In this document: positions 32,624-40,796 of the stretch, piece after piece
Numbering within the stretch: position 1 is the first letter of the stretch
Layout of the letters: each line of letters opens with the position of its first letter
Notes under the pieces: generated by a model
Database searches by the model: none
Told to the model about the DNA's origin: nothing
What the model saw: the letters and a program-made list of their open reading frames with translations, nothing else
Program-made: the position numbers and the translations under genes
From: Pedococcus dokdonensis
Lineage (GTDB): Bacteria; Actinomycetota; Actinomycetes; Actinomycetales; Dermatophilaceae
Direction: 5' to 3'
Assembly (NCBI RefSeq): GCF_900104525.1
Contig: NZ_LT629711.1
Coordinates: 744,001-808,000 of the forward strand
Length of the DNA: 64,000 nt

Positions 32624-32677
32624 TTGACGGACTGTCCGTGGCCGGGTGTACGGTTCTTCTATCGAACACACGTTCGA
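32624..32677 (+). promoter_or_regulatory. SOS promoter with LexA box
   Basis: TTGACG (32624-32629) and TGTACG (32647-32652) are spaced 17 bases, and TCGAACACACGTTCGA (32662-32677) is a near-perfect actinobacterial SOS box just downstream of the -10. LexA bound here would block the DUF6504-HEPN-dnaE2 operon until DNA damage. Confidence 0.85.
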
Positions 32678-32723
32678 ACCCGTGATCCCTCCGGTGACCT
32701 CCAGTCGCCGGTGGGGCACTGCG

Positions 32724-32775
32724 GCTCCGGCCCTGTGACCAGGCGCCTCGACCCCGTCTCCCACAGGGCCGGAGC
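32724..32775 (+). other. Long hairpin in the SOS operon leader
   Basis: The gene-free stretch 32678-32932 is the leader of the SOS operon. GCTCCGGCCCTGTG (32724-32737) pairs perfectly with 32762-32775, a 14-bp stem with a 24-base loop. It is too stable to ignore and may end or slow transcription or control translation. Further on, 32824-32875 repeats ATTCCTGCCTGCCC-like units. Confidence 0.6.
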
Positions 32776-32932
32776 ACGCGATCCGAGTGCGCCGTCGCGC
32801 CTGTCCTCGACGGTGCTGCGTCATGCCCGATTCCTGCCTGCCCTATTCCTGCCTGCCCGATTACCGCCTGCGTGCTGTCTGCCCGCCTGAACCTGCCGTC
32901 CGCAACCCGACCCCCTGTGAAGGAGCAATTCC

Positions 32933-33289
32933 GTGGTTCGCCGCTACGAAGAGACCATCGAGGTCCGGGAGGGGCCCCGCGACGACCTGGGCGCCGCCCT
33001 CGACATCGACCCGGCCGGGACGGGCGGGCTCGACCGACGTCGGCCGGACGCCTTCGTCTGGCGCGGCCGGCTCTACGTCGTCCGGGCCGTGCTCGACCAC
33101 TGGCAGGAGCGTCGTCCGTGGTGGCGGGACGCCCGAGAGCGCGACGGTGGCAGCGATGTGCTCACCGACGCCCGGGAGCGACAGGTCTGGCGGGTCGAGG
33201 CGAGTGCCGGTCGACTGTGTGGCGTGGGGGTCTACGACCTGTGCGCCGACCACGGCGACCAGTGGCGGCTGCTGAGGGTCGCGGACTGA
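32933..33289 (+). CDS. DUF6504-family protein of the SOS cassette
   Basis: Codes for 118 residues from GTG 32933; AAGGAG lies seven bases upstream. RRYEETIEVREG opens the domain, FVWRGRLYVVRAVLDHWQE and WRVEASAG..GVGVYDLCAD..QWRLLRVAD complete a beta-rich fold with many Trp. Members are found upstream of SOS-controlled dnaE2 or Y-family polymerase genes in actinobacteria. No activity is known to me. First gene after the LexA box and coupled (ATGA) to the HEPN gene, so it is likely damage-induced and may bind the mutasome polymerase. Confidence 0.85.
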   Translation: MVRRYEETIEVREGPRDDLGAALDIDPAGTGGLDRRRPDAFVWRGRLYVVRAVLDHWQERRPWWRDARERDGGSDVLTDARERQVWRVEASAGRLCGVGVYDLCADHGDQWRLLRVAD

Positions 33290-33819
33290 TGACCGCCACG
33301 ACAGCCACCGGGGCGGCGGCCACGCTCGACCTGCTCGACCGGGCCCGGCACTCGCTGCTCGAGGCCTGCCAGAGCCAGGAGGTCGCCCGGCGCTACGACC
33401 AGGCCCAGCTCGGGGCGCTGCGGGCGGCCGCGGCCGTGGTCGCCACCCGCAGCACCTCCCGTCACCGGTCCACCGGTCAGTCGGGTCCGCGCAGCCTGTG
33501 GGAGCTGCTGCCCTCCGTCGCGCCCGAGCTCTCCGAGTGGGCGGGGTTCTTCGAGGTGGTCGGGGCGCGGCGCCACCAGGGGCACAGCACACGGGAGGCC
33601 GATGACGTGCTGCGTCAGTCCGAGCTCTTCCTCGACCTCGTCTGCCGCACCCTCGGGCTGCCGGTGACGGTGGCCCCGCACGACCACCTGCTGGTGCCGA
33701 CCACCCTGCCGACCACTGAGAGCCACGTGACCTCCCCGAACCACGCGACGGTCCCGAACCACGCGACGGTCCCGAACCACGCGACGGCCATCCCCGACGA
33801 GGCGAGGGCGGCGCCATGA
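33289..33819 (+). CDS. SAV_6107-family HEPN protein of the SOS cassette
   Basis: Codes for 176 residues. LLDRARHSLLEACQSQEVARRYDQAQLGALRAAAAVVA is a long helical segment typical of HEPN/SAV_6107 domains; the R-x4-6-H nuclease motif of toxin HEPN proteins is not clear, so a binding role is more likely than RNase activity. The C-terminal 35 residues include three PNHATV repeats from an 18-bp tandem repeat. It overlaps DUF6504 and dnaE2 by four bases on either side, so the three should be made together. Confidence 0.85.
   Translation: MTATTATGAAATLDLLDRARHSLLEACQSQEVARRYDQAQLGALRAAAAVVATRSTSRHRSTGQSGPRSLWELLPSVAPELSEWAGFFEVVGARRHQGHSTREADDVLRQSELFLDLVCRTLGLPVTVAPHDHLLVPTTLPTTESHVTSPNHATVPNHATVPNHATAIPDEARAAP
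33736..33789. repeat. 18-bp tandem repeat in the HEPN gene tail
   Basis: Three units of CCGAACCACGCGACGGTC, the first two identical, in frame (PNHATV). Confidence 0.9.
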
Positions 33820-36800
33820 GCACCGAGTTCGTCCATCTCCACGTCGCCTCCGGGTTCTCGATGCGCTACGGCACGTCGACACCAGAGGCCCTGGTCGAGC
33901 GGGCCGCCCAGCACCGCCAGCCGATCCTCGCCCTCACCGACCGCGACGGCCTCTACGGCGCGGTCCGGTTCGTCCAGGCAGCCACCGCGGCCGGGATCGC
34001 CCCGGTCCTCGGTGTCGACCTCGCGGTGGGGCCGGACGCCCCCCGTCCCGGCGAGGTGGGTGCGCCCCCCACCGCCGCGCGCACACCGGTCCGCGGTGGT
34101 GCCGAGCGCGACGCCCGCCATCCACGGGTCACAGTCCTCGCGCAGGGGCGCGCGGCCGGCGTGCCCGCCGGCGTGGGCTGGGCGGCGTTGTGCCGGCTGG
34201 TCACCCAGACCCACCTGCGGGGGGAGCGCGGGGTGCCGGTGAGCTCCATGGCGGTGCTCGCGGGCGCCTGCGGGGGAGTGCCGGGCGAGGGCGCACCGGG
34301 CGGGGGAGTGCCGGGCGAGGGCGCGCCGGGATCGGGCACACCGGGATCGGGCACACCGGGATCGGGAGCGCCCAGCCCCCTCGTGGTGCTGCTGGGGCCC
34401 GACTCCGACGTGGGTCGGGCGTTGCTGGCCCGACGCACCGACCGGGCCCGTGAGCTCCTGGCGGGCTGGCGACGCCGGCTGCCACCCGACGCCCTCGTCG
34501 TCGAAGTGGTCTGCCACGGGGGACCCGAGGGCACGCCCGCCTCGCGCAGCCACGCCCGGCGGCTGCTCGGGCTCGCCGACGAGCAAGGGGTCCCCGCGGT
34601 GCTCACCGCGGCGGTGCGCCACGTCGACCCGGGGGAGTCCGCGGTCGTGGACGTGCTCGACGCCGCGCGGCGACTGGTCGCCCTCGACACCCGGCACCTC
34701 GACCGGGTCACCGACGCAGCCCACCTCGCGAGCACCGACACGATGCACGCCGTCGCCCGGGAGGTCACCGGCGGCGACGCGGGCCGCGCCGATGCTCTGG
34801 TCGCCCGCACCCTGGCCCTCGGACTCGGGTGCGCCCAGAGCGCCCGCCACGACCTCGGCATCGGCTCGATCCACCTGCCCGAGCCGGACCGGCTGGGGGT
34901 GGAGCCGGGCATGAGCGCCCAGGTCATGCTCGAGCAGCGCTGCCGTGCGGCGGTGGCCTGGCGCTACCCGGGTGCCGGCGACGCCGAGCTGATGGCCATC
35001 GAGAGCCGGCTCAGCGACGAGCTCAAGGTGATCGCCGAGCTCGGCTACCCGACCTACTTCCTCACCGTCGCCCAGGTCGTCGACCTGATCCGCGAGATGG
35101 GGGTCCGGGTCGCCGCCCGCGGCTCGGGGGCGGGGTCGCTGGTCAACTACCTGCTCGGCATCAGCGGGGTCGACCCGGTCCGCTACCGCCTGCTGATGGA
35201 GCGGTTCTGCTCGCCGCTGCGGGCCGAGCTGCCCGACATCGACATCGACGTGGAGTCGGCCCGGCGCACCGAGGTCTACGAGCGGATCCTCGACCGGTTC
35301 GGCGGTGAGCGCGTCACCTGCGTCTCGATGATGGACACCTACAAGGTCCGGCACGCCATCCGTGACGTCGGGTCCGCCCTCGGGCTGCCGCCGGTGGAGA
35401 TCGACGAGATCGCCAAGGCCTTCCCGCACATCCGCGCCCGTGACGCGCGCAACGCCATCGCCGAGCTGCCCGAGCTGCGGGCACGGGGGCTGGACAGCCC
35501 ACGGCTGCGGGCGCTGTTCGACCTGGTCGAGCGGCTCGACGGCCTGCCCCGCCACATCGCGCTGCACCCGTGCGGGGTGATCCTGTCCGACGGCAGCCTG
35601 CTCGACCGCACCCCGGTCGAGGCGAGCTGGCTGGGGTTCCCGATGAGCCAGTTCGACAAGGACGACGTCGAGACCCTCGGGCTGCTCAAGCTCGACGTCC
35701 TCGGCATCCGCATGCAGTCCGCGATGGCGCACGCCGTGGCCGAGGTGGCCCGGGTCGACGGGGTCCAGGTCGACCTCGACGACCAGGCCCAGGTGCCGCT
35801 CGACGACGAGGCGACCTTCCGGCTGATCCGCACCAGCCACACCCTCGGCTGCTTCCAGATCGAGAGCCCGGGTCAGCGTGAGCTGATCGGCAAGTTCGGC
35901 CCGGAGCGCTTCGAGGACCTCGTCATCGACATCTCGCTGTTCCGCCCCGGTCCGGTGAAGTCCGACATGATCACGCCGTTCCTCGAGGCGCGGCACGGGT
36001 GGAAGGAGGTCAGCTACCTGCATCCGACGCTCATCGAGGCACTGCGCGAGACCGAGGGCGTCGTCGTCTTCCACGAGCAGGTGCTGATGATCGTCGCCGA
36101 GACCACCGGGGTGTCGCTGGCCCAGGCCGACGAGGTCCGCCGCACCCTCGGCACCCCCAAGGGCCAGCGCGAGATCGAGGCCTGGTGGCGACCCGCGGCA
36201 CGGGCCCGCGGCTACACCGCAGACGACCTCGACAAGATCTGGGAGGTGCTCAAGGCGTTCGCGTCGTTCGGGTTCTGCAAGGCGCACGCGGCGGCCTTCG
36301 CGCTGCCCACCTACCACTCGGCCTGGCTCAAGACGCACCACGCCGCCGCGTTCCTCTCCGGGGTGCTCACCCACGACCCGGGCATGTACCCCAAGCGGCT
36401 CATCCTCGACGACGCGCGCAGCCTGGGCATCGCGGTGCTCGGACTCGATGTGAACGCCTCCACCGGCAGCTACCGCATCGAGCGGCTGGACGCCCCTGCC
36501 GCCCCCACTGACCACACTGACCCTGCTGACCCTGCTGACCCTGCTGACCCCGGCCTCAGGGACGGTGACCTGTTCGACCACGTCGCCCCGTTCACGCCCC
36601 CGCACCCCGACCTGCCCGACGCCAGCCGCTACGGCATCCGGCTGTCGCTGGCCGACGTGCGCGGCATCAACGACGCCGAGGTGGCCCGGATCGTCGCGGG
36701 GCAGCCCTATGCCGGGCTGTCCGACTTCTGGCACCGTGCCCGCGTCTCGCGCCCGGTCGCCGAGCGACTCGTCCTGGCCGGCGGGTTCGACAGCCTCTAC

Positions 36801-37835
36801 GGCATGCGGGTCGAGTCCGCCGGGATCGGGGCCGGCGGGCTCGGGCGCCGGGGCCGCACCACCCGTCGCGACCTGTTGCTCCACGTCGCCGAGCTCGACC
36901 GCTACGGACGGGCGCTGGACCGCTCCGCCAAGCGGGCCGCGCCACGGCGGGGCAGGGGAGCCGCCACTGCGGCATCCGACCTGGCGCTCGGCGACGGGCA
37001 GGTGCGGGCCAGGGCGGCGGCGCAGTCCCAGGGCGCCCTGCCGGTGACCGCGGCCGAGCAGCAACCCACCCAGCTCGCGCTCGACCTCGGTGACCGGCCC
37101 GAGCTGACCAGCGGCACCGGTCTGCCCGAGCTGTCCGGCCCGGAGCGCGTCCGGGCCGAGCTCGACATCCTCGGCCTCGACGCCAGCGCCCACGTCGTCG
37201 CCTTCTACGCGCCGATGCTCGACGCCCTCGGGGTGACCCGCAGCCGCGACCTGCTGCGGGCGCGCAGCCGGTCGACCGTGTGGGCCTGCGGGGTCAAGGT
37301 CGCCACCCAGACCCCGCCGATCCGCACCGGGCGCCGGGTGGTCTTCCTCACCCTCGACGACTCCACCGGTCCGGTCGACGCGACCTTCTTCGAGGACGTC
37401 CAGGGGCCTTACGCCGCAACGGTCTTCCACTCGTGGATGCTGCTCGTGCGAGGAGTGGTGCGACGCACCGGGCCGCGCGGGGTCTCGTTGCGGGCGACGG
37501 GGGCGTGGGAGCTCACGCCGTTGTGGGAGGCGTGGCTGGCCGGTGGCCTCGAGGCGGTGTATGCCGCGATGGAGGCGACCGAGCAGGCCGCCACCGAGCA
37601 GGCGCAGGCCCTGGAGGCAGCCCATCAGGAGCAGGTGGGGGCGGGGCGACGGGTGCTGGTCCACGCCTCGGGGTTCCGCCAGTCGCCCTACGCCGACATC
37701 CGTCCGGCCGGCGAGGACGTGCGCGGCTCGCACCGGCTGGGTCAGGGCGTGGTCGTGCCCGATGGTCGCGAGGCGGAGCAGTTCAGTCCGCCGCGCAAGC
37801 TCTGGCACTCCAGTCCCGGCAGCAGCGGCCACTGA
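33816..37835 (+). CDS. dnaE2: Error-prone DNA polymerase III alpha subunit, DnaE2 type
   Basis: Codes for 1339 residues. PHP domain first (FVHLHVASGFSMRYG...LALTDRDGLYGAVRF), with a Gly/Pro/Ser-rich repeat insertion at about residues 150-187. The polymerase core follows: GSGAGSLVNYLLG, PDIDIDVESARR (two catalytic Asp), FDVLG-like LKLDVLGIRMQS (third Asp), FGFCKAHAAAFALPTYHSAWLKTH. A C-terminal OB fold (RRVVFLTLDDSTGPVDATFFED) closes the protein. DnaE2 enzymes bypass DNA lesions under SOS control. ATG 33816 overlaps the HEPN stop. A second low-complexity tract (TDPADPADP, near residue 905) comes from a 9-bp repeat. Confidence 0.95.
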   Translation: MSTEFVHLHVASGFSMRYGTSTPEALVERAAQHRQPILALTDRDGLYGAVRFVQAATAAGIAPVLGVDLAVGPDAPRPGEVGAPPTAARTPVRGGAERDARHPRVTVLAQGRAAGVPAGVGWAALCRLVTQTHLRGERGVPVSSMAVLAGACGGVPGEGAPGGGVPGEGAPGSGTPGSGTPGSGAPSPLVVLLGPDSDVGRALLARRTDRARELLAGWRRRLPPDALVVEVVCHGGPEGTPASRSHARRLLGLADEQGVPAVLTAAVRHVDPGESAVVDVLDAARRLVALDTRHLDRVTDAAHLASTDTMHAVAREVTGGDAGRADALVARTLALGLGCAQSARHDLGIGSIHLPEPDRLGVEPGMSAQVMLEQRCRAAVAWRYPGAGDAELMAIESRLSDELKVIAELGYPTYFLTVAQVVDLIREMGVRVAARGSGAGSLVNYLLGISGVDPVRYRLLMERFCSPLRAELPDIDIDVESARRTEVYERILDRFGGERVTCVSMMDTYKVRHAIRDVGSALGLPPVEIDEIAKAFPHIRARDARNAIAELPELRARGLDSPRLRALFDLVERLDGLPRHIALHPCGVILSDGSLLDRTPVEASWLGFPMSQFDKDDVETLGLLKLDVLGIRMQSAMAHAVAEVARVDGVQVDLDDQAQVPLDDEATFRLIRTSHTLGCFQIESPGQRELIGKFGPERFEDLVIDISLFRPGPVKSDMITPFLEARHGWKEVSYLHPTLIEALRETEGVVVFHEQVLMIVAETTGVSLAQADEVRRTLGTPKGQREIEAWWRPAARARGYTADDLDKIWEVLKAFASFGFCKAHAAAFALPTYHSAWLKTHHAAAFLSGVLTHDPGMYPKRLILDDARSLGIAVLGLDVNASTGSYRIERLDAPAAPTDHTDPADPADPADPGLRDGDLFDHVAPFTPPHPDLPDASRYGIRLSLADVRGINDAEVARIVAGQPYAGLSDFWHRARVSRPVAERLVLAGGFDSLYGMRVESAGIGAGGLGRRGRTTRRDLLLHVAELDRYGRALDRSAKRAAPRRGRGAATAASDLALGDGQVRARAAAQSQGALPVTAAEQQPTQLALDLGDRPELTSGTGLPELSGPERVRAELDILGLDASAHVVAFYAPMLDALGVTRSRDLLRARSRSTVWACGVKVATQTPPIRTGRRVVFLTLDDSTGPVDATFFEDVQGPYAATVFHSWMLLVRGVVRRTGPRGVSLRATGAWELTPLWEAWLAGGLEAVYAAMEATEQAATEQAQALEAAHQEQVGAGRRVLVHASGFRQSPYADIRPAGEDVRGSHRLGQGVVVPDGREAEQFSPPRKLWHSSPGSSGH
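34271..34372. repeat. dnaE2: Repeat insertion inside the DnaE2 PHP domain
   Basis: Two related 30-bp units (GVPGEGAPG coding) followed by three 15-bp units (GGATCGGGCACACCG) add an in-frame, flexible Gly/Pro/Ser loop between conserved PHP segments. Confidence 0.85.
36507..36550. repeat. dnaE2: 9-bp repeat in dnaE2
   Basis: Four copies of GCTGACCCT (DPA coding) lie in a linker between the polymerase core and the C-terminal part. Confidence 0.8.
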
Positions 37836-37867
37836 GCTTCGCACCGGCGCCACGACCGTCGCCGGCT

Positions 37868-38075
37868 CGACCCCTGCACCGACCGCACCGACACGCACCG
37901 ACTCGCACCGACCGCACCGACGCACCGACTCGCACCGACGCACCGACTCGCACCGACTCGCACCGACCGCAGCGACCGCACCGACGCACCGACTCCACCG
38001 ACTCCACCGACTCCACCGACCGCACCGACCGCACCGACTCGCACCGACGCACCGACTCGCACCGACCGCGCGGTC
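37868..38075. repeat. Dense ACCGAC repeat tract between dnaE2 and the methyltransferase
   Basis: About 200 bases built almost entirely of 9-11-bp units containing ACCGAC (for example GCACCGACTC and CCACCGACT). The gap 37836-38149 has no credible gene. A -10-like TAGGCT (38104-38109) after the tract would give the methyltransferase its own promoter. Confidence 0.9.
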
Positions 38076-38149
38076 GTGCCGGTGCCCCGACACCCCCGAC
38101 GACTAGGCTGGCCGGAGCACCAACAGACCCAGCACAGGAGGTGGCCGAC

Positions 38150-38923
38150 GTGGCCGAAGAGCAGTGGCGGCACCGGCGCGGAGGCGTCGAGACGGCCCTG
38201 CGGACCTCGGCGGTGTGGGCCTCGGTGCGCGGCCTCATCGAGCGCCGCGAGGCGGAGCTGGGCCGTCCGCTGCGGGTGCTCGACCTCGGCGGCGGCACCG
38301 GTGGGCTGGCCGTCCCGCTCGCCGAGCTGGGCCACCAGGTCACCGTCGTCGACCCCAGCCCGGACGCCCTGGCCTCGCTGTCCCGGCGCAGCAGCGAGCG
38401 TGGTGTCGCCGACCGGGTCACCGCGCTCCAGGGCGACGCCGACTCGCTCGCCGGCTTCGTCGGCGACGAGCAGCTCGACCTCGTCTGCTGCCACGGCACC
38501 CTCGAGGTCGTCGACGACCCCGCGGCCACCCTCGCCGCGCTCGCTGGGGTGCTCGCCCCCGGTGGTTACCTCAGCCTGGTCGCCGCAGGGCGGCTCGCCG
38601 TCGTGCTCGCCCGGGCGCTGGCCGGCCAGTTCGCCCAGGCCCACACCGCCCTCACCTCGGCGGACGGCCGCTGGGGCAGCGCCGACCCGTTGCCCCGCCG
38701 CTTCGACGCGACCGAGCTGCGGACCCTGGTCGAGCAGTCCGGCCTGACCGTCGAGGACGTCCACGGCGTGCGCGTGTTCAGCGACCTCGTCCCGTCCGCG
38801 CTGATCGACTCCGACGCCGACCGGGTCGCGCTGCTCGAGCTCGAGCAGGCGGCCACGGCACACCCGGACTTCGGCTTCCTCGGGCAGCTCGGCGCGGCCG
38901 TGCACGTCCTCGCCCGTCGCTGA
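38150..38923 (+). CDS. Class I SAM-dependent methyltransferase
   Basis: Codes for 257 residues from GTG 38150, with AGGAGG eight bases upstream. Motif I VLDLGGGTGG (near residue 43), VVDPSPDALASL (acidic residue binding SAM ribose), LVCCHGTLEVVDD (motif IV region) and APGGYLSLVAAG are intact. It resembles small-molecule or tRNA methyltransferases of the Methyltransf_11/25 type; no substrate can be given. It sits between dnaE2 and dinB, and is possibly transcribed from its own promoter. Confidence 0.88.
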   Translation: MAEEQWRHRRGGVETALRTSAVWASVRGLIERREAELGRPLRVLDLGGGTGGLAVPLAELGHQVTVVDPSPDALASLSRRSSERGVADRVTALQGDADSLAGFVGDEQLDLVCCHGTLEVVDDPAATLAALAGVLAPGGYLSLVAAGRLAVVLARALAGQFAQAHTALTSADGRWGSADPLPRRFDATELRTLVEQSGLTVEDVHGVRVFSDLVPSALIDSDADRVALLELEQAATAHPDFGFLGQLGAAVHVLARR

Positions 38924-38950
38924 CCGGGTGCGGACCACGGGACCACCGCG

Positions 38951-40252
38951 ATGAGCCGGCGTCAGTACGCGCTTCCGCAGCGCAACGACGAGCACCCCCC
39001 GGACGACACGGGGTGCACGGTGCTGCACGTCGACATGGATGCCTTCTACGCCTCGGCGTCCCTGCTCAGCCGCCCCGAGCTGGTCGGCACCCCGGTGATC
39101 ATCGGCGGGGGCGGCAACCGTGGGGTGGTGCTGTCCGCGACCTACGAGGCCCGCAGGTTCGGGGTCGCCTCCGCGATGCCGATGGCCCGAGCCCGGCGGC
39201 TGTGCCCCACGGCCACCGTCGTCGCCCCCGACTACGCGCTCTACAGCACCATCTCGGCTGCCGTGATGGCGACCTTCGAGACGATCACCCCGATCGTGGA
39301 GCCGCTGTCCCTCGACGAGGCGTTCCTCGACGTGGCCGGAGCGGTCCGCCGGCTCGGCACCCCGGCCGCCATCGGCCAGCTGATCCGCGACACCATCCAC
39401 GACGAGCAGGGCATCACCTGCTCGGTCGGGGTCGCGCCGACCAAGTTCGTGGCCAAGCTGGCCTCCGGGCTCGCCAAACCCGACGGCATGGTGGTGGTGC
39501 CCCGCGACGAGGTGGTCACCTTCGTCCAGCAGCTGCCGGTGGGCGCCCTCTGGGGTGTGGGCGACAAGACCGAGGAGGCGCTGCTGCGGCTCGGGCTGCA
39601 CACCGTCGCCGACATCGCGCACACTCCGCTCGACACCCTGCGCCGGGCCCTGGGCGAGAGCGCCGGCCCCCACCTGCACGACCTGGCCTGGGGCCGCGAT
39701 CCCCGGCACGTCGAGGTGCAGCGCCGCGAGCGCAGCATCGGCTCCGACGAGACCTTCGAGTTCGACGTCGACGACCCGGCCTACATCCACCGGCAGCTGC
39801 TCAAGCTCAGCGACCGGACCGCCGCCCGGGTCCGCTCGGCCCGGATGATGGGGCGCACGGTCACCATCCGGGTGCGCTTCTCCGACTTCACCACCATCAC
39901 CCGCAGCCGCACCCTGCGTGACCCCACCGACGTCAGCCGGGAGATCTTCGACACCGCCAAGAGCCTCTACGACGCCTTGGGGCTGCAGCGTGCCCGGATC
40001 CGGTTGGTCGGGGTGCGCATGGAGGGCCTGGTCGAGAGCGAGGGGGCGCCCATCCAGGGCACCCTCGACGAGCCCGACCACGGGTGGCGTGAGGCCGACC
40101 GCGCGGTCGACCGCGCCAGTGCCCGGTTCGGCGCCGGGAGTGTCCGCCCGGCCAGCCTGATCAGCGACCGTGAGCGCGAGCGCAGACGGGGCGAGCGGGG
40201 TGAGCGAGGTGTCGATCCGGGGACGCCGAGACCTCGACCGGCGAACGGGTAG
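38951..40252 (+). CDS. dinB: Y-family DNA polymerase IV
   Basis: Codes for 433 residues. VLHVDMDAFYASASLL (first catalytic Asp pair), SATYEARRFGVASAMP, SLDEAFLDVAG (catalytic Asp-Glu), SVGVAPTKFVAKLASG and GVGDKTEEALLRLG (helix-hairpin-helix) are all present, so this is an active Pol IV rather than the catalytically dead ImuB seen beside dnaE2 in mycobacteria. The little-finger domain ends near residue 375; the tail is highly charged (RERERRRGERGER). It is 27 bases after the methyltransferase stop. Confidence 0.94.
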   Translation: MSRRQYALPQRNDEHPPDDTGCTVLHVDMDAFYASASLLSRPELVGTPVIIGGGGNRGVVLSATYEARRFGVASAMPMARARRLCPTATVVAPDYALYSTISAAVMATFETITPIVEPLSLDEAFLDVAGAVRRLGTPAAIGQLIRDTIHDEQGITCSVGVAPTKFVAKLASGLAKPDGMVVVPRDEVVTFVQQLPVGALWGVGDKTEEALLRLGLHTVADIAHTPLDTLRRALGESAGPHLHDLAWGRDPRHVEVQRRERSIGSDETFEFDVDDPAYIHRQLLKLSDRTAARVRSARMMGRTVTIRVRFSDFTTITRSRTLRDPTDVSREIFDTAKSLYDALGLQRARIRLVGVRMEGLVESEGAPIQGTLDEPDHGWREADRAVDRASARFGAGSVRPASLISDRERERRRGERGERGVDPGTPRPRPANG

Positions 40253-40382: not shown

Positions 40383-40796
40383 GTGCCGCTCTCCGAGCAC
40401 GAACAGCAGCTGCTTGAGCAGATGGAGCAGGCGCTGTATGCCGAGGACCCCAAGTTCGCGTCGCAGATGCAGGGCGCCGGTGCCCGGCGCTCGGCCCGCC
40501 GGCGGATGGCTGTCGGGGTGGTGGGGGTCGTCCTCGGGCTCGCGCTCGTGCTGGTCGGCGTCAACACCACGATGTGGATCGGCGCCGTCGGGTTCGCCGT
40601 CATGGTCGGGGCGGTGGCGTTCGCGCTCACGCCGCCGCGTCGCAAGGCCGGTCTCGGCACCGTCCAGCCGGACGGCAGCGTCCGCCGCTCCACCCCCGGC
40701 AAGTCGGCCAGCCGGTCCAAGTCCACCAAGTCCGGCGGGTCCTTCATGGACCGCATGGAGGAGCGCTGGGACAAGCGCCGCGACGACGGCCTCTGA
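40383..40796 (+). CDS. DUF3040 membrane protein
   Basis: Codes for 137 residues from GTG 40383 (CAGGAGG upstream). MPLSEHEQQLLEQMEQALYAEDPKFA is the diagnostic DUF3040 start, followed by two hydrophobic segments (MAVGVVGVVLGLALVLVGV and WIGAVGFAVMVGAVAFAL) and a basic Ser/Lys-rich tail ending with FMDRMEERWDKRR. In many actinobacteria this gene precedes mraZ and the division cluster; mraZ is not present here. Function unknown. Confidence 0.9.
   Translation: MPLSEHEQQLLEQMEQALYAEDPKFASQMQGAGARRSARRRMAVGVVGVVLGLALVLVGVNTTMWIGAVGFAVMVGAVAFALTPPRRKAGLGTVQPDGSVRRSTPGKSASRSKSTKSGGSFMDRMEERWDKRRDDGL

Follow-up and report, generated by a model that had tools for sequence, protein, structure and literature searches.

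The window analysed here is a stretch of 64,000 nucleotides (nt) of the Pedococcus dokdonensis genome, part of one 3.94 Mb contig, and the gene cluster that begins in it with a LexA box at 32663-32676 is probably a LexA-repressed mutagenesis operon that couples two SOS units which can be separated. In order, the box is followed by genes for a DUF6504 protein, a SAV_6107-type HEPN protein, DnaE2, a methyltransferase, a catalytically complete DinB and an SCO2097-family protein, all on the + strand. The first unit would consist of DUF6504 and DnaE2, with DUF6504 docking on DnaE2 as a standalone version of the C-terminal barrel of ImuB (ImuB-C); the second would be HEPN, by itself an SOS gene in much of the Actinomycetes, co-expressed with any mutagenic polymerase next to it and elsewhere expressed alone. 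The box (CGAACACACGTTCG, no strand assigned) matches the consensus and lies about 257 nt 5' of the DUF6504 start codon. The DUF6504 gene (32933-33289; GTG start; 118 amino acids), a probable standalone ImuB-C, matches Pfam PF20114 at 82.3 bits; the HEPN gene (33289-33819; 176 amino acids) matches PF18726 at 78.4 bits against a cut-off of 27.2; dnaE2 (33816-37835; 1339 amino acids) belongs to a DUF6504-linked clade; and dinB (38951-40252) encodes a Y-family polymerase (PolY) with both acidic motifs, VDMDAFYAS and SLDEAF. These matches and motifs bear out the gene content proposed in the original prediction, which was made from the sequence alone. Its further statement that the genes all overlap by four bases holds for HEPN and dnaE2 (ATGA) but not for DUF6504 and HEPN, which share one base (TGATG).

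A single LexA box is in itself unsurprising, as 0.42 occurrences of GAACN4GTTC are expected in 64 kb and at least one was found in 37 of 100 shuffled sequences. The box of the window is significant because its position is conserved in relatives: an exact box was present in 36 of 37 full operons with the same architecture, none of which carried the reversed control motif, and the consensus SOS box of the original prediction is confirmed. For this comparison (the box table), exact matches were sought from -600 to +50 of the domain start of the first gene, with a background of 0.012 per 650 nt and the reversed motif as the control, which occurred in no locus of the table. Genome-wide, the motif was found at 27 sites versus 10 for the pattern read backwards, and recA of the same genome also has a LexA box upstream. 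With a LexA box at a conserved upstream position, the window operon has the mark of an SOS regulon member; LexA would bind at this box, and the operon would be induced by DNA damage.

The survey of relatives recorded gene order, LexA boxes, phyletic patterns and motifs. Within the order (119 genomes), HEPN was matched in 59 genomes, of which 58 exceed the cut-off, and DUF6504 was matched in 39; the two are adjacent in all 34 genomes that have both. Within the class (138 genomes), 103 have a HEPN match and 63 a DUF6504 match (62 over the cut-off), and the two are adjacent in 41 of the 45 genomes with both; the four genomes with non-adjacent genes all belong to one family (f79). Five arrangements were seen in the fetched loci, the class-level HEPN contexts being drawn from 40 of the 98 genomes that have HEPN and lie outside the order, with four short loci counted apart: DUF6504-HEPN-dnaE2-(methyltransferase)-dinB-SCO2097; HEPN-dinB-SCO2097; HEPN with an ImuB-like gene, a distant dnaE2 and dinB (L205, L207, L208; SCO2097 was seen in L205 only, the other pieces ending near there); HEPN near SCO2097 without a polymerase; and HEPN alone. 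In L205, L207 and L208, the ImuB-like gene and DnaE2A occupy the HEPN-dinB site, where other families have the DUF6504-linked dnaE2.

The economical reading of these arrangements is that the operon joins two independent SOS units that are often coupled, because family f79 and Nonomuraea gerenzanensis hold the two apart, mostly with boxes, and because dnaE2 has a box of its own where it is spaced from HEPN. In family f79, the DUF6504 loci are boxed in 4/4 cases, with dnaE2 in the fetched piece in 3/4, and the HEPN loci are boxed in 3/4. In N. gerenzanensis, HEPN lies at about 4.34 Mb and DUF6504-dnaE2 at about 10.03 Mb, 5.7 Mb apart, each with a box. Four loci of one genus (L045, L079, L084, L090) have 2.4-4.3 kb between HEPN and dnaE2, and all four carry a second box 90-99 nt before the dnaE2 domain start. 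Among partial versions of the operon, DUF6504 and HEPN without dnaE2 in the piece were boxed in 4/4 loci, DUF6504 with HEPN cut by a contig end in 1/1, and HEPN with dnaE2 at a contig end in 0/1. Three distant DUF6504 loci (L020, L024, L027) likewise have a LexA box immediately ahead of dnaE2 in addition to the one that precedes DUF6504. In another locus (L039, genome G210), DUF6504 and HEPN follow a LexA box and no dnaE2 was found between HEPN and dinB, a likely case of dnaE2 loss.

In many Actinomycetes, HEPN_SAV_6107 is probably an SOS gene independent of the polymerases, because the box tracks HEPN in the full operons, in the HEPN-dinB loci and in orphan loci, as opposed to 2/20 dinB loci without HEPN (chosen at dinB among the 60 genomes of the order in which HEPN was not matched). 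Exact boxes precede HEPN in 21/28 HEPN-dinB loci, with all seven misses in family f57 (1/8 there) and 20/20 elsewhere, in 3/3 loci where HEPN accompanies an ImuB-like gene and DnaE2A, in 11/13 orphan loci, and in 4/12 loci where HEPN is near SCO2097 without a near dinB. HEPN is thus not specific to DnaE2, as it also stands before dinB alone, before an ImuB-like/DnaE2A cassette or with no polymerase. Several results weigh against a general role in the SOS response: no exact box was found in seven Streptomyces-like HEPN loci (a label of our own, taken from gene order), the box is missing from 7/8 HEPN loci of family f57, and it is also missing from 3/4 HEPN loci of family f5, which lie outside the box table (box in 1/4). 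The lack of HEPN from Table 1 of the LexA study of S. venezuelae, which lists dnaE2-dinP (PMC9380542), fits the box-free Streptomyces-like loci.

Damage induction of a HEPN gene may already have been recorded in Corynebacterium glutamicum, whose genome matches PF18726. The LexA-regulon study behind its gene cg2381 is reportedly that of Jochmann (2009). This gene is listed, in the available text of PMC5055667, as a LexA-regulon gene with an M-value of 3.86 on ciprofloxacin, the same as that of recA, and the adjacent cg2380 is given as a putative membrane protein (available text of PMC5711897). Because cg2380 encodes a putative membrane protein and would be a gene of the SCO2097 type, because HEPN adjoins SCO2097 in 4/4 loci of family f5, and because the genome has a PF18726 match, cg2381 is probably the HEPN orthologue; that this assignment comes from position only belongs with the points weighed above. 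The only link between HEPN and the SOS response seen in open-licence PMC main texts was cg2381, given there as a 'conserved hypothetical protein' under LexA regulation.

The HEPN protein does not look like a catalytic HEPN ribonuclease. All 42 aligned sequences, that of the window included, match PF18726 at E 0.001, and the RX4-6H motif is unconserved after residue 60, with any match in only 9/42; this agrees with the table of PMC3710099, in which the motif is absent for HEPN-M (SAV_6107), the same Pfam family within the HEPN superfamily. That table does not cover gene neighbourhoods, and no SOS link was seen there. An earlier R-x4-H has histidine in 88% of the aligned sequences and glutamine in the window protein, and in our reading it is not the catalytic position. 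Ten genes in the neighbourhood of HEPNs that are orphan or lack a polymerase (six loci) were scanned with Pfam, and no repair polymerase or nuclease was among them. A PAC2-family gene was observed directly 3' of the orphan HEPN in both scanned loci of family f81 (L216, L220). Sequence searches of the PDB with both small families returned nothing useful (the best hit for HEPN, to a UPF0332 protein, had E 0.16), and NCBIfam contained no family at E 0.1 for either the DUF6504 or the HEPN protein. Our guess is that HEPN serves the damage response as a helical adaptor or a regulator and is not a nuclease. A wider proposal, put forward tentatively, is that HEPN_SAV_6107 may be a core and so far unrecognised SOS effector, non-nuclease and LexA-controlled across much of the class, whose targets in trans would be stalled forks, mutagenic polymerases or cell-cycle arrest, and which would repeatedly have become coupled to whichever TLS polymerase cassette was available (DnaE2B, ImuB/DnaE2A or DinB).

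The main rival to the adaptor guess is a role specific to DinB, in which HEPN_SAV_6107 would be an SOS-coupled accessory of Pol IV and the DUF6504-dnaE2 module would have joined an older HEPN-dinB operon. HEPN lies at most 1.3 kb before dinB in the 28 loci without dnaE2 between them, the DinB match starts in 8 of these where a four-base overlap would place it, and DinB carries RecA-like and clamp-like stretches of its own. Orphan HEPNs without a near dinB nevertheless retain the LexA box for the most part, the seven Streptomyces-like loci keep HEPN near SCO2097 without dinB, and dinB adjoins SCO2097 without HEPN in 16/20 loci fetched at dinB in the HEPN-less genomes, so that this explanation is judged rather unlikely, if the best placed of the competing ones.

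DUF6504, on the other hand, goes with DnaE2 and is, from its genomic associations, its likely partner. Among 26 DUF6504 loci outside the class (the best-scoring 26 of 54 matching genomes, in pieces of up to about 3.3 kb), a box lies upstream in 25, the 26th being cut 149 nt upstream; dnaE2 is in the short flank of 20, and HEPN is in none of the short pieces. DUF6504 with dnaE2 and no HEPN nearby was also found in L094, L254-L256 and L259. Eleven further loci (L221-L231) all have the box, although they were found via similarity to the DUF6504 of the window and do not form an independent sample. The closest named relatives of the window DUF6504 are in Phycicoccus and Pedococcus, and the DUF6504 model matches 1 of 14 control genomes (Caulobacter). 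A plasmid tblastn search returned a Nonomuraea record of 11.85 Mb and a plasmid of Thermaerobacter sp. FW80 (Bacillota; L260, NZ_CP037896.1) that carries a DUF6504 gene; none of the annotated neighbours displayed for this gene is a polymerase.

The likeness of DUF6504 to ImuB-C is suggestive and non-significant, and the two are probably the same domain. The AlphaFold2 model of DUF6504 (predicted local distance difference test 81) has strands at E2-13, E38-43, E46-60, E82-91, E98-105 and E111-117 and a short helix at 63-67, in an order similar to the last five strands of ImuB-C in actinobacterial ImuBs (E65-68, E71-80, E88-96, E102-107, E110-117). A W-x5-WW element (tryptophan, five residues, two tryptophans) occurs in most members of both. 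The identification with the ImuB-C of the authors of PMC12926913 is one that we infer ourselves. On the opposing side, profile comparison gave a probability of 1.9%, and with larger sets 5.8% (score 20.4; the highest of 150 column shuffles scored 19.7 and the reversed profile 11.9), both of which are weak; PF20114 matched 0/19 ImuB-C sequences; fold searches with the DUF6504 and ImuB-C models found no convincing PDB match; dnaE2 is not in the flank of DUF6504 in 6/26 distant loci, L257, L039 and L183; and an exact box is missing from L094 (0/1), where DUF6504 and dnaE2 occur without HEPN. Likewise, a protein search with the ImuB C-terminus returned 37 proteins, none listed with PF20114. The weak profile match and the missing Pfam and fold links are what would be expected if DUF6504 were a small DnaE2-associated protein unrelated to ImuB-C, an explanation that is considered unlikely in view of the common W-x5-WW element, the similar order of the last five strands and a gene partner that is the same as that of the published ImuB-C.

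The separate fates of the two small genes bear on the earlier suggestion that both serve as DnaE2 accessories in the place of ImuA'. That suggestion is supported in part for DUF6504, given its 20 distant loci with dnaE2, and is not supported for HEPN or for the pair. Should DUF6504 and HEPN both be dedicated DnaE2 accessory factors that jointly replace ImuA' and ImuB, the DUF6504-HEPN-dnaE2 order of the 37 fetched loci and the gene overlaps in the window would be accounted for, as would the excess of genomes with at least two DNA_pol3_alpha matches among the over-cut-off HEPN genomes of the order (57/58 versus 49/61 others, among the matches listed; a hand count confounded by kinship). The DUF6504 loci that lack HEPN outside the class and in L094, and the HEPNs that are orphan or accompany dinB alone or an ImuB-like gene and DnaE2A, make this quite improbable. 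HEPN as a replacement of ImuA' was rejected. The linkage survey that had been proposed across actinobacteria therefore gives a split answer, with DUF6504 and dnaE2 co-occurring non-randomly and HEPN only loosely linked to dnaE2. It is very improbable that HEPN is a bystander of chromosomal synteny whose box serves only the downstream polymerases, as although HEPN is found near SCO2097 even without polymerases, orphan HEPNs away from both are boxed far above the background and the Nonomuraea HEPN is boxed as well.

The polymerases of the operon are consistent with a mutasome that lacks ImuB. In a DnaE2 tree, 39 DUF6504-linked and 21 ImuB-linked rows were separated by one branch with 100% support (quick method), and the window DnaE2 falls among the former, outside the ImuB-linked clade; rows shorter than 750 residues or with an internal stop were left out, L094 carries a long-branch warning, the 'ImuB-linked' L105 has no ImuB-like hit and the 'DUF6504-linked' L050 is a contig end. 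A Q-L-x-L type motif after residue 900 is present in 33/38 DnaE2s of this kind, the misses being four in a seemingly wrong overlapping frame and one at a contig end; in the window it is QLALDL (residues 1086-1091; 37071-37088, +), a putative beta-clamp-binding hexamer, and a QLPLxL motif is described for some actinobacterial DnaE2s in the available text of PMC3919608. The C-terminal tail LWHSSPGSSGH (37800-37832, +) recurs in relatives, with LWHxSPG near the C-terminus of 21/38 DnaE2s of the clade and a near variant in several more; other DnaE2s end in an SRDF tail (same portion of PMC3919608), and the LWHSSPGSSG-like tail is a possible docking peptide.

With the IMS model, two Y-family genes were detected in the genome; because both keep the acidic residues, as judged by eye, no ImuB (inactive PolY) was seen among them, in keeping with the original prediction that ImuB is absent and that the Y-family enzyme retains its catalytic residues. 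The second of these genes (G000:C1:2246135) may be DinB3-like. The RecA model finds one RecA (476 bits) and two sub-threshold hits in the genome, no ImuA-specific search having been made; the RecA of a DnaE2B-PolY-(ImuB-C)-RecA complex is thus at hand. The window DinB is, by inspection of its sequence, an active-looking PolY whose C-terminus has a stretch (40088-40162, +) resembling by eye the N-terminus (NT) of the RecA of the same genome, a RecA-NT-type motif described for Y-family enzymes in the available text of PMC6511836. The stretch is not specific to DnaE2 loci, because DinBs without dnaE2 carry it too. A nearby QGTLD (40055-40069, +) may be a degenerate clamp-binding motif. The PHP domain is where ImuB-C docks according to the published model of ImuA-ImuB-DnaE2; DUF6504 would make the corresponding contacts within the mutasome and join DnaE2 to the active, RecA-binding DinB, and DnaE2, perhaps also DinB, would reach the sliding clamp via its own motif.

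Comparison with known systems places the operon close to a class already in print. According to the main text of PMC12926913, there are DnaE2B groups in genomes without ImuA/ImuB, one with active PolY, standalone ImuB-C and RecA and another with ImuB-C only; standalone ImuB-C partners of DnaE2 also appear in the available texts of PMC6511836 and PMC3765255. The former group, of the Tessaracoccus lapidicaptus type, resembles the window in having DnaE2 without ImuB, an active-looking PolY with a RecA-NT-like stretch and a small beta protein with dnaE2, and differs in that HEPN is not mentioned in that main text. The Arthrobacter alpinus type (DnaE2B with ImuB-C only, as described there) recalls L094 and the 20 distant loci with DUF6504 beside dnaE2; unlike the window, it has no HEPN or dinB alongside. 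The ImuA'-ImuB-DnaE2 mutasome of Mycobacterium is likewise a DnaE2 cassette under a LexA box, and one component of the window resembles its ImuB C-terminal domain, but in the window no inactive PolY was found and the DnaE2 has another clade and C-terminal tail. The dnaE2-dinP operon of Streptomyces, with inactive DinB2 (available texts of PMC9380542 and PMC6511836), shares a LexA-controlled dnaE2 adjoining a Y-family gene; its PolY is inactive, it has no ImuB-C in those texts, and HEPN is found in the seven Streptomyces-like loci without a polymerase or exact box. Given these published partners, and provided that DUF6504 is ImuB-C, the earlier statement that the accessory factors lack an assigned function goes too far for this protein.

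The remaining features of the operon are positional neighbours or repeats. The S-adenosylmethionine-dependent methyltransferase gene (38151-38923, +; start codon uncertain) scores 101.5 bits with the CmoM model, far under the cut-off of 366, and lies about 315 nt after dnaE2 (subject to that start codon) and 27 nt before dinB. It was considered and rejected as a part of the mutasome because a match also lies between HEPN and SCO2097 in 6/7 polymerase-free Streptomyces-like loci. Much of the spacer between dnaE2 and the methyltransferase gene is a 9-bp GC-rich tandem repeat of about 21 copies (37876-38069, no strand assigned), and tandem repeats also occur within genes, the unit being 18 bp at the HEPN C-terminus (33735-33787) and 15/30 bp in the N-terminal portion of dnaE2 (34270-34367). 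The SCO2097-family (DUF3040) gene (40383-40796, +) is a frequent right-hand neighbour of HEPN/dinB loci. Upstream of the operon, a divergent aminoacyl-tRNA editing gene (YbaK-type, PF04073; 32011-32547, - strand) was observed, as was one upstream of an orphan HEPN (L220:8861-9727, - strand).

Two uncharacterised small proteins that had seemed to be a pair are now separated. The mutasome part seems to belong to a class for which predictions are in print, and HEPN looks like the new element: DUF6504 probably completes the predicted mutasome class without ImuA and ImuB, and HEPN would mark a widespread damage-response gene. Knowing the small partner of DnaE2 makes induced mutagenesis in these bacteria testable.

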